Shown here one piece after another: positions 39,114 through 42,279 of a stretch of 64,000 bases of DNA. Numbering within the stretch: position 1 is the stretch's first letter; the number at the start of each line of letters is the position of its first letter. This DNA is from an uncultured Woeseia sp. GTDB taxonomy: Bacteria > Pseudomonadota > Gammaproteobacteria > Steroidobacterales > Woeseiaceae. Position numbers and translations under genes: made by a program. The stretch is taken from the NCBI GenBank assembly GCA_913031125.1, contig CAJWFK010000002.1, positions 1-64,000 of the forward strand. Direction: 5' to 3'. The notes beneath the pieces are model-generated. The model saw only the letters and a program-made list of their open reading frames with translations. It was not told where the DNA came from and searched no databases.

Positions 39114-40411
39114 TCCCTGACCCTATCCTCAATATTTAAATAGTCGCGCTCCCTTGGGCCGCTATAGAGCTGGCGTGGACGACTAATACGACCATTTGGA
39201 TCGGTAATCATCTCACGCCAGTGGGCTACCCAACCGACTGTCCTTGCCATAGCAAAAATCACTGTGAACATTGATGTTGGTATTCCAAGTGCTCGATATA
39301 TGATCCCTGAATAAAAGTCGACGTTCGGGTAAAGATTTTTCTTGATGAAATATTCATCGTTAAGCGCAACTTGTTCTAACTCTAGGGCAAGGTCAAAAAG
39401 AGGTGACTCCAAGTGTCCCATTTTAATTAAAACCTTGTGACACATTTTACGTATGATCTCAGCGCGTGGATCATAATTCTTGTAGACACGGTGCCCGAAG
39501 CCCATTAAACGAAATGAGTCTTTCTTGTCCTTGGCTTTCTCAACGTACTTTTGAATGTTGCTTACACTGCCGATTTCTTTAAGCATCCTAAGCACTGCCT
39601 CGTTCGCACCACCATGGGCTGGACCCCAAAGGGCTGAAATGCCTGCCGCAATTGCGGAGTAGGGATTTGCACCCGAGCTTCCCGCCATTCTAACGGTTGA
39701 GGTAGAACAATTCTGCTCATGGTCGGCATGCAATATAAGAAGCAAATCAAGTGCTTCCACCGCTACTTCATCAATCTCGTATTCCTCTGCAGGCACGGCA
39801 AATAGCATTCGCAAAAAGTTCTCAGCATACTTAAGGTCGTTACGGGGATAAATGAAGGGCTGGCCTGCAGTCAGTTTATGAGCAGCAGCCGCAATAGTGG
39901 GTATCTTTGCAATGATCCGATGTGCGAAAATTTCTTGCGCCTCTACACTATTTATATCCATTGTGTCGTGATAGTAGGCAGACATTGAGCCTACCACAGC
40001 CGAGACAACTGCCATCGGATGGGCGTCATAACGAAACCCGTTGAAGAATCGCAACATGCCCTCATTTAGCATTGTGTGCCGAGTGATCGAGGTTTCAAAT
40101 TGGCAAAGTTGGTCGGATGTCGGCAACTCTCCATATAAAAGGAGGTAGGCCACCTCAATGAAATTTGAATGCTTAGCCAGCTGCTCAACCCGATAACCTC
40201 GGTACGTGAGCACCCCGTCTTTCCCATCTATGTACGTGATTTTGCTTTCGCAACTCCCAGTAGAAACGAAGCCTGGATCATAGGTAAAGACGCCACATTC
40301 TTTGAATAGTTTCCCAATTTCAATAACATCTGGGCCGGTCGTTCCTTTACGAATAGGCAATTCGATCTTTTGCCCATCGGGACTTCTCAGTGTAAATACT
40401 TCCTTGGTCAT
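39098..40411 (-). CDS. gltA: Citrate synthase
   Basis: Condenses oxaloacetate and acetyl-CoA to citrate. The 437-aa sequence is of the Gram-negative hexameric type, with an N-terminal beta domain, catalytic His in WGPAHGGAN, His in [13 protein letters not shown] and Asp in NVDFYSG. The ATG at 40411 has GAGGAAA 5-6 nt upstream; an in-frame GTG at 40432 would add seven residues and is less likely. NADH-sensitive regulation is usual for this type but not shown here. Confidence 0.96.
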
Positions 40412-40493
40412 AATTTCCTCAATAGTAACCACCGCCCATCGAAGGTCAGCAACACCCTTCGATACCGCAAGCCGGAAATATTAACAATCAACT

Positions 40494-40511
40494 GAAGCCC
40501 GAGACGGCTTC
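40494..40511 (-). terminator. Possible terminator after rpmE
   Basis: GAAGCC (40494-40499) and GGCTTC (40506-40511) form a 6-bp stem with a 6-nt loop just downstream of the rpmE stop on the minus strand. The following sequence is only T-rich (AGTTGATTGTT), without a clean U tract, so termination would be weak. Confidence 0.3.
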
Positions 40512-40524
40512 TTGCCCAACCTAT

Positions 40525-40737
40525 CTAGCTACTTGAGTCCAGACCGTACTTACGACGAAACTTATCGACCCGACCACCGGTATCAACTATTTTCTGTTTA
40601 CCTGTATAAAACGGATGACAAGCAGAACAAACCTCTATAGCAAGATCTTCACGCAGAGTACTGCGTGTGGTGAATTCATTGCCACAGCTACAAGTTACAT
40701 TGATTTCACTGTAGTTGGGATGTATATCGACCTTCAT
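40525..40737 (-). CDS. rpmE: 50S ribosomal protein L31 (zinc-binding form)
   Basis: A 70-aa ribosomal protein. It retains the four zinc ligands Cys16, Cys18, Cys37 and Cys40, making it the C+ form that also acts as a zinc reserve. Family sequence [32 protein letters not shown] is intact. No Zur-like operator is evident. Its upstream region is the AT-rich DnaA-box segment described separately. Confidence 0.97.
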
Positions 40738-40837
40738 GTAAGGACATTCCTAATTTTGGGTTCGGTGGTCTCGAAAAGGGCGCGTAGGATAATCTGAAGC
40801 TGCTTCCGCCGCAAGTCTTATGCTAAAGCACTTAACT

Positions 40838-41049
40838 TTATCCACAAAAATTGTGGATAACTCTGTGTAAAAAATCAGCAAGAATACCCTAAGTATCCAT
40901 TTTTAAAGAGTGCTTTTTAGTATGTATACTTTGTGTTAATTTTGTTAACTATATATTTATCAATTAGTTATAATTTATTTTAGAATTATTAAGCTAAATT
41001 TCTCGCGTATCATATAGAAAAGAAACACATACCCTCGACTTGTGTATAA
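40838..41049. other. Candidate replication origin / DnaA-binding locus
   Basis: TTATCCACA (40838-40846) and TGTGGATAA (40852-40860) are two perfect DnaA boxes as an inverted repeat 5 nt apart. TGTGTATAA (41041-41049) is a third perfect box (TTATACACA on the minus strand), and 40864-40872 is one mismatch from consensus. Between them 40911-41000 has 14 G/C in 90 bases. A perfect IHF consensus (WATCAA-N4-TTR) lies at 40958-40970. This is the E. coli oriC inventory: strong boxes, a low-stability unwinding region and an IHF bend. dnaA and mnmG are not in the window, so the assignment rests on sequence and the nearby change in gene orientation. Confidence 0.55.
40958..40970 (+). promoter_or_regulatory. 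Putative IHF-binding site
   Basis: TATCAATTAGTTA matches the IHF consensus WATCAA-N4-TTR at every fixed position and sits within the very AT-rich segment flanked by DnaA boxes. A-tract-rich sequence on its left is favourable for IHF bending. Confidence 0.5.
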
Positions 41050-41118
41050 CGACTTCTGCAAAAGCTTTGTCCATCTTTCACGTAAAGAAAACCAAAATTT
41101 CTCAAATCTTAACTATTA

Positions 41119-42279
41119 TCAAGGCAGAAAGCGCGCCTGCAAATCATTCAAAAAGCGTAGTCCATTGCAGGTCGGACGCCATCGATCCTCGTCTACCCTC
41201 TCCAACAACCCATCTTCTGCCGCGATATGCAATTTGGTTTCAATTAGCAAGGAATCTAGTCCAGTGCGTTCATGAAACATACCAATAGAAAATCCGTCTA
41301 GCATACGCAATGCATTTAACATGAACTCAAATACCAAATCTTTGCCAGCTACATAACTTGAATTATCCACGAAGCATCCAGTTTCTATATGCTCTATAAA
41401 TTCTTGCGGATTGGACGCTTTACGGTAACGAATAATTTTACCATCTTTAGTGGTAATTTTACCGTGGGCCCCCGCACCGGCTGCAAGATAATCACCAAAC
41501 TGCCAATAATTCACATTGTGGCAACAGCGCCTATCACGCTGCGCGAACGCAGATATTTCATATTGCTGATAACCCGCGCGCTTCAATAAACGGTGTCCCT
41601 TATTCTGCATCTCCCAAGTTATATCGTCATTCGGAATGCCTTTCGGTGGACATTTATAGAATACGGTATTCTGCTCAAGAGTTAATTGGTAATAAGAGAT
41701 ATGCTGCGGTGATAGCTCAACAGCATATGAAATATCTGCAGCCGCCTGATCGACCTGTTGTCCAGGTAAAGCAAACATTAAATCTATGTTTATGTTATCG
41801 AACCCGGCTTTAACAGCCCCAGAAAAAGCTGCTCGTATTTCTTCTGGACCATGAATTCTTCCTAGTGCCTGCAACATAACGTTATCGAAACTTTGCGCTC
41901 CAATTGACAATCTATTAACGCCAGCTTCCAAATAGCCTGAAAAATTGCCATATTCAACCCCCCCCGGATTTACTTCCATCGTGATTTCACAATTGCTAAT
42001 AATTGAAAAATGAGCCCTACACTGATCAAGAACCGATTTGATTTGTGCTGGGGTGAACAGACTGGGTGTTCCGCCACCAATGAAGATGCTTGCAATAGCT
42101 CGATCTGAGGCCCGCCGAGCTTCATTCTCAATATCGACGTTTAGAGCATTTGTATAGCGATCAAACGGCGCATTCTCCCCAGCTTTATGCGAATTGAAAT
42201 CGCAATATGGACATTTGCTAACACACCACGGCAAATGCAAATAAAGGGATAGAGGCGTTGAGACCTGAATTAAATCCAA
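41119..42279 (-). CDS. hemW: Radical SAM heme chaperone HemW
   Basis: A 386-aa protein of the HemN-like radical SAM family; HemW members bind and transfer heme rather than act as coproporphyrinogen dehydrogenases. The [4Fe-4S] motif is C-x3-C-x2-C with Cys19, Cys23 and Cys26, and the following residues are DFNSH, the HemW rather than HemN pattern. Other blocks are FIGGGTPSLF, EVNPGG and RLSIGAQSFD. The start is TTG at 42279, overlapping rdgB by 10 nt. hemW-rdgB is a conserved gammaproteobacterial pair. Confidence 0.94.
   Translation of the reverse strand: MDLIQVSTPLSLYLHLPWCVSKCPYCDFNSHKAGENAPFDRYTNALNVDIENEARRASDRAIASIFIGGGTPSLFTPAQIKSVLDQCRAHFSIISNCEITMEVNPGGVEYGNFSGYLEAGVNRLSIGAQSFDNVMLQALGRIHGPEEIRAAFSGAVKAGFDNINIDLMFALPGQQVDQAAADISYAVELSPQHISYYQLTLEQNTVFYKCPPKGIPNDDITWEMQNKGHRLLKRAGYQQYEISAFAQRDRRCCHNVNYWQFGDYLAAGAGAHGKITTKDGKIIRYRKASNPQEFIEHIETGCFVDNSSYVAGKDLVFEFMLNALRMLDGFSIGMFHERTGLDSLLIETKLHIAAEDGLLERVDEDRWRPTCNGLRFLNDLQARFLP

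Follow-up and report, generated by a model that had tools for sequence, protein, structure and literature searches.

Hda makes ADP-DnaA in RIDA, and loci of the DARS type are non-coding sites which turn ADP-DnaA back into ATP-DnaA. For E. coli DARS1 and DARS2, the core has been described as a set of three DnaA boxes with equal spacing in both loci, in which box I is opposite to boxes II and III, and head-to-head boxes were reported to be a prominent DARS feature (PMC5742627). ADP-DnaA molecules bound to boxes I and II were reported to meet head to head and to lose ADP (PMC8682772). DARS1 was described as a fragment of 101 bp which is active in vitro without other factors (PMC5742627), and the sequence flanking its last DnaA box was published as an accessory region (PMC4585315). 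For DARS2, additional DnaA boxes and a requirement for IHF at set distances were reported (PMC4245941, PMC8682772), with a separation of 3 bp published for IBS1-2 (PMC4245941). A ChIP-seq study gives in its Table 1 a double DnaA box with 3-bp spacing for DARS1 and one with 2 bp for DARS2, and also double boxes at E. coli datA and oriC (PMC11317965).

Conservation of DARS2 has been reported for E. coli-proximal beta- and gammaproteobacteria, including Vibrio cholerae and Shewanella denitrificans (PMC8682772, PMC4245941, PMC5742627). Among the papers listed in searches of an open-access library, none links DARS, or a DnaA box, with rpmE, and none links DARS with priA. The locus described here lies between rpmE and hemW and, judged from its sequence, is probably a DARS-type locus.

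The element between rpmE and hemW

The window, which is the whole stretch of 64,000 nucleotides analysed, comprises bases 1-64000 of contig C2 (143,145 bp) from a draft genome of 2.98 Mb (G000). By HemW, the closest named relatives are Woeseiaceae MAGs. An earlier note on this DNA had listed three perfect DnaA boxes, one near match, a perfect IHF site and an intervening stretch with 14 G/C in 90 nt; all of these were found in place, and rpmE and hemW had been named correctly as the flanking genes (Table 1).

Table 1. Features of the rpmE-hemW region and of the dnaA-dnaN gap, in contig C2 coordinates.
Feature	Position	Strand	Remarks
DnaA box I TTATCCACA	40838..40846	+	opposite in direction to boxes II and III; separated from box II by 5 bp
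DnaA box II TTATCCACA	40852..40860	-	reference point for distances within the element
DnaA box III TTTTACACA	40864..40872	-	fits the TTWTNCACA consensus; 3-bp spacer GAG to box II
AT-rich spacer around IHF site	40911..41000		14 G/C of 90
IHF site TAACTAATTGATA	40958..40970	-	perfect IHF consensus; 110 bp upstream of box II (start to start)
Distal DnaA box TTATACACA	41041..41049	-	189 bp upstream of box II (start to start)
Putative rpmE promoter	40786..40814	-	TTGCGG (40809-40814), 17 bp, TATCCT (40786-40791); read by eye
rpmE (ribosomal protein L31)	40525..40737	-	downstream neighbour; 56% identical to E. coli RpmE
hemW	41119..42279	-	upstream neighbour; named from sequence
Likely true oriC, dnaA-dnaN gap	C2:86093-86290 (L003:2093-2290)		at skew switch and very AT-rich, with boxes at 86150 and 86247 (-)

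The element is intergenic and non-coding, and is separate from oriC. Its core reads TTTTACACA-GAG-TTATCCACA-ATTTT-TGTGGATAA, corresponding to box III, box II and the inverted box I; box III precedes box II by 12 bp, and the start of the inverted box I follows that of box II after 14 bp. Boxes II and III together form a 'double DnaA box'. Read in the orientation of hemW, the distal box TTATNCACA is followed after ~80 bp by the IHF site YAANNNNTTGATW and then by box II TTATCCACA, with 110 bp from start to start between the latter two.

The putative rpmE promoter is kept in relatives and is separate from the element. No perfect Fis consensus was identified in the hemW-rpmE intergenic region. A known RNA leader was ruled out, since no Rfam match was obtained at E<=1 in 40300-41300, and an intrinsic terminator was ruled out because on neither strand is the 23-bp palindrome followed by a T run. 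The genome encodes Hda and IHF-alpha, both identified above curated cut-offs.

Single 9-mers of this kind are unremarkable, with 49 occurrences of TTATMCACA in the 2.98-Mb draft compared to 37 for the backwards control. The chance of finding three TTATMCACA boxes in 212 bp anywhere in the genome is about 3e-4 in a rough Poisson estimate which ignores local base composition. On the 143-kb contig, the rpmE-hemW cluster is the best-scoring DnaA-box cluster, and its AT-rich spacer is the only non-overlapping 90-bp stretch with <=14 G/C. At 0 mismatches, the genome contains no second convergent box pair with 5-bp spacing. A same-strand pair TTATACACA/TTATCCACA, 111 bp apart, was observed on another contig (C3:59834-59953) and is similar to the box pair of the dnaA-dnaN gap, which is spaced by 97 bp.

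Position of the replication origin

The combination of DnaA boxes, AT-rich DNA and an IHF site is insufficient for calling an origin. The earlier note had considered a relocated origin and had suggested a search for dnaA, dnaN and mnmG together with a skew analysis. All three genes were found on the contig of the element, with dnaA at C2:86291-87616, mnmG at C2:91657-93564, and dnaN, recF, gyrB, yidC and mnmE (names read from translations) between or beside them. Between 0 and 86.5 kb, the GC skew at 4-fold degenerate sites, in + strand reading, was -0.17 to -0.20 whichever strand carried the genes. Between 86.5 and 118 kb, it was +0.14 for 23 + genes and +0.27 for two - genes; beyond 118 kb of C2 it was mixed, with -0.02 for + genes and +0.14 for - genes. 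The sign flips at 86.2 kb between dnaN (-0.51) and dnaA (+0.26), and no sign change was present on C2 at 41 kb. When break points were fitted with gene strand included as a covariate, the break was placed at 86,246 with a log-likelihood gain of 92.4, compared to 23.3 when it was forced to the element.

By skew, the origin of the genome thus likely lies between dnaA and dnaN, and the element does not coincide with the replication-strand skew switch. Since dnaA is located 45 kb from the element on C2 and the skew flips between dnaN and dnaA, the element is not the origin, and a relocated origin was rejected on skew. Of the observations named in the earlier note as arguing against an origin at this site, a denser box cluster beside dnaA is absent from the source genome with its two boxes in the dnaA-dnaN gap, but the skew is decisive.

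In relatives, three boxes spaced 35 and 98 bp were identified just downstream of dnaA in G005, G009, G076 and G101. Similar sets are present there in G026 (35, 32) and G035 (34, 100), and no box or a weak one was found in G040 and two genomes of family f13. For the complete relatives G059 and G040, the raw skew keeps dropping through the element to the dnaA region, which is 212 kb off in G059 and 90 kb off in G040. The strand-corrected fits for these two genomes were weak. For G040, they barely distinguished dnaA (9.1) from the element (8.4), with the best break 12 kb past dnaA (14.0). The highest gain for G059 (15.7) was obtained with a break at 315 kb of the stretch, compared to 2.8 at the element and 1.6 at dnaA; a rise after dnaA is unseen here because the stretch ends 5 kb past dnaA. 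A weak or uninformative skew was obtained for G005, G009, G026, G035, G076 and G101, with the strand-corrected fit leaning slightly to the element in G076 (2.05 versus 0.66 at dnaA) and to dnaA in G101 (4.37 versus 0.06 at the element). In two small AT-rich genomes of family f13 (G062:C1 and G087:C1), a break of the 4-fold skew was observed at dnaA with a sign opposite to that of the source genome.

Conservation of the geometry in relatives

Among 196 order-level genomes, 107 contained the pattern consisting of the distal box and boxes II and I, with one match per genome except for two in G177. Within the family, the pattern of distal box and core was present in 39 of 41 genomes (counted from the table). 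When the spacer was relaxed to 166-196, the pattern was identified in 115 of 369 class-level genomes; it was absent from 89 genomes of the order set and from 254 of the class set. The reversed control gave 0 matches in the 196 order-level and 369 class-level genome rows, which have five genomes in common, and a chance origin of the arrangement was thereby ruled out. When the core alone was searched with three mismatches allowed, the reversed control matched once per strand in G076. The distance from the distal box to box II is 186-193 bp from start to start (gaps 177-184) in 124 of 143 class-level matches, whereas 36.9 would be expected with equal gap odds if the genomes are treated as independent.

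Among 80 named HemW loci, 67 were without an rpmE match in the DNA covered and were set aside. For 24 loci with both hemW and rpmE matches, in which the locus of the window itself and a single duplicate pair are counted, the full set of perfect boxes was found in 17; degenerate versions are present in L014, L037 and L084, and the boxes are absent in L070, L075, L095 and L107. No conservation in close relatives, which in the earlier note would have spoken against the cluster, is therefore not what was found, as boxes and spacing are kept.

The IHF site provided an independent test, since its motif was left out of the search pattern. For this test, 99 elements were used (the window, L011-L020, L032-L141, L268-L297 and L302-L321), of which 76 non-redundant ones were left after dropping those with >=70% ungapped identity. 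In 52 of these 76 elements, an IHF motif with at most one mismatch precedes box II by 107-113 bp and has the same orientation, and none of the 76 has it there in the opposite orientation; in control windows of equal width, it was found in 0 and 1 of 76. The remaining 24 elements are without the motif at this distance. In L280 and L284, which have an unusual distal spacing, the IHF site is nevertheless present at 110 and 109 bp. The matching AT-rich stretch was at least 5 points below its flanks in G+C in 76 of 76 elements, a set in which near-duplicates were kept, and its median GC was 0.33 compared to 0.48-0.63 in neighbouring intergenic DNA (46 elements).

The genomic place was analysed for 30 order-level loci drawn from the 107 genomes with the pattern; family f15 contributed 28 of these loci and f4 two. 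All 30 are immediately upstream of rpmE, behind which gltA follows, and the other flank is hemW, rdgB or rph in 29 of them. In the first 30 class-level loci, 14 adjoin priA, three are near rpmE and one has hemW alone nearby; the remaining 12 gave no match to any of the 20 neighbour proteins used. Four genomes (G246, G386, G340 and G415) contain one element at priA and one at rpmE. The distance from the core to rpmE ranges from ~90 to 250 bp among the hemW-rpmE loci and is ~0.7 kb in L268 and L269, and the internal spacing stays constant while both this distance and the neighbouring genes change. The same geometry was also seen beside alpha/beta hydrolase-like (L270-L272), ksgA-like (L273) and proS-like (L280) genes, named by eye from translations. 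In the complete genome G040, with its rpmE element at 2595972, a second DARS-like convergent pair with one mismatch was noticed at C1:2789347-2789369.

Predicted function and comparison with E. coli loci

The arrangement of a DARS core, with box I opposite to boxes II and III in the spacing of DARS1 and DARS2, is present in the element. The case for DARS rests on box I, because a double box like that of boxes II and III occurs at datA and oriC too. A common rule was applied to all loci, by which a convergent pair has a 5-bp spacer, one perfect half and up to three mismatches in the other half. Such a pair was identified once each in the 6-kb stretches of DARS1 and DARS2, at their cores, and once in the element, and was absent from the E. 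coli datA (4-kb), oriC and priA-rpmE stretches. The geometry of the boxes favours a DARS-type locus over both titration and a second origin. We conclude that it would be a variant form, which differs from DARS2 by an IHF arm on the other side of the core, by an additional DnaA box at the distal position and by the lack of a perfect Fis consensus.

By analogy, ADP-DnaA would load on core boxes I-III, and two AAA+ domains on boxes I and II would come together head to head, with loss of ADP. IHF is predicted to bend the 190-bp arm, by which DnaA at the distal box could touch or regulate the core complex, and the released apo-DnaA would pick up ATP for the next initiation. Fis may be dispensable, or may be replaced by DnaA at the distal box.

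For three other explanations, arguments are available on both sides. In a datA-like locus, IHF-bound DNA would gather ATP-DnaA and either stimulate ATP hydrolysis or titrate DnaA, preventing early re-initiation. This would fit with the IHF site between DnaA boxes, since datA likewise pairs an IHF site with flanking DnaA boxes, and with the position of the element, which is 33-212 kb from dnaA in 15 of 30 genomes chosen partly for long contigs (on separate contigs in the other 15) and 45 kb in the source genome; datA was reported to be always close to oriC (PMC4585315), and DnaA boxes were reported to be enriched around oriC in E. coli (PMC12371093). However, head-to-head boxes are described as a prominent feature of DARS (PMC5742627), the 4-kb E. 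coli datA stretch is without a convergent pair of 5-bp spacing, and at most four boxes of the element fit the consensus, which are few for titrating, so that a datA-like role is considered unlikely. The proposal of the earlier note was right in kind insofar as it described a DnaA-binding control locus away from the origin; the geometry fits better to a DARS-type locus than to the titration locus or the second origin-like element which the note had named.

A secondary or former replication origin would explain the boxes, the IHF site and the localized AT-rich stretch, and raw cumulative skew minima are indeed located <=0.8 kb from the element in G062 and G087, ~4 kb in G005 and G009, and ~7 kb in G101. 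When gene strand was modelled, however, a break at the element gained only 0.00-2.30 log-likelihood units in these genomes (0.11 in G062, 0.02 in G087, 0.00 in G005, 2.30 in G009 and 0.06 in G101), and the flip at dnaN/dnaA in the source genome and the raw skew falling past the element in G059 and G040 also argue against an origin, which makes this reading very improbable. A DnaA-dependent control of the neighbouring gene, rpmE here and priA elsewhere, would couple ribosome or primosome synthesis to DnaA. Box I is located 23 bp upstream of the predicted -35 region of rpmE, and the constant position upstream of rpmE in the order and the frequent one at priA in the class would be in agreement with such a control. 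It is nevertheless improbable, since the neighbouring gene and the distance to rpmE vary with internal distances nearly fixed, which argues for a self-contained nucleoprotein site and not for an rpmE operator.

As a probable DARS-type locus, the element can be compared to the E. coli sites one by one. The DARS1 core, located between bioD and uvrB, reads TAATACACA-TGG-TTATCCACA-GGAAT-AGTGGATAA and has the same spacing and orientation of boxes I, II and III as the element. On its box III side, two weak sites with two mismatches each were found at the places where the element has its own sites, an IHF-like one at 111 bp and a DnaA-like 9-mer at 189 bp, the background rate of such weak sites being ~0.6-0.8% per offset. 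Unlike in the element, the IHF-like and distal sites of DARS1 are degenerate, and its genomic place is another one. Matches to uvrB were obtained in 367 of 369 genomes of the class.

The DARS2 core, located between rppH and mutH, reads TCTTACACC-ATG-TTATCCACA-GAAAG-CTGGGATAA and also has the spacing of the element, but its box I is degenerate with three mismatches. An IHF-like site with one mismatch is present at 109 bp on the box III side, as in the element, while a distal box, which the element has, is missing at 185-195 bp (best 9-mer with five mismatches). The only two IHF motifs with at most one mismatch that are 3 bp apart, and which thereby fit to IBS1-2, are located on the box I side of DARS2. 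The IHF site of the element is on the box III side, opposite to the side of IBS1-2 as assigned from the 3-bp separation. DARS2 depends on Fis sites, whereas the element is without a perfect Fis consensus. By the side of its IHF site, the lack of this consensus and its hemW-rpmE locus, the element is not a strict homologue of DARS2. In the DARS2 stretch, a second convergent pair, TTATTCACC-TTTTC-TGTGGATAG, with three mismatches in all, was observed 316 bp from the core (L298:1136-1158).

E. coli datA shares with the element an IHF site, a DnaA-box cluster near the origin and a double box like that of boxes II and III. It differs by the convergent pair with a 5-bp spacer, which is missing from the datA stretch of E. 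coli; in the element, an IHF site lies between boxes. The likely oriC of the source genome also combines DnaA boxes and AT-rich DNA, but is located at the skew switch, and the element is not.

The weak IHF-like and distal sites in DARS1 and DARS2 provide a lead for a common descent with the element. As a tentative proposal, which we regard as possible rather than probable, an IHF-looped DARS with a core, an IHF site at 110 bp and a distal box at 190 bp might be a general, probably ancestral, gammaproteobacterial module for recharging DnaA, located at rpmE or priA and in some genomes at both. DARS1 and DARS2 would then be relocated, partly degenerate descendants without the distal box, of which DARS2 gained control by Fis. 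If the element works as its geometry implies, switching of DnaA between the ATP and ADP forms by dedicated sites would be common in Gammaproteobacteria, with a rigid architecture of its own. A simple sequence test for DARS-type loci could then be applied to any genome, and the spread of DnaA reactivation would be directly testable. DARS has been described mainly from E. coli and its relatives, and the fixed arrangement of binding sites identified here is found in many members of the class.
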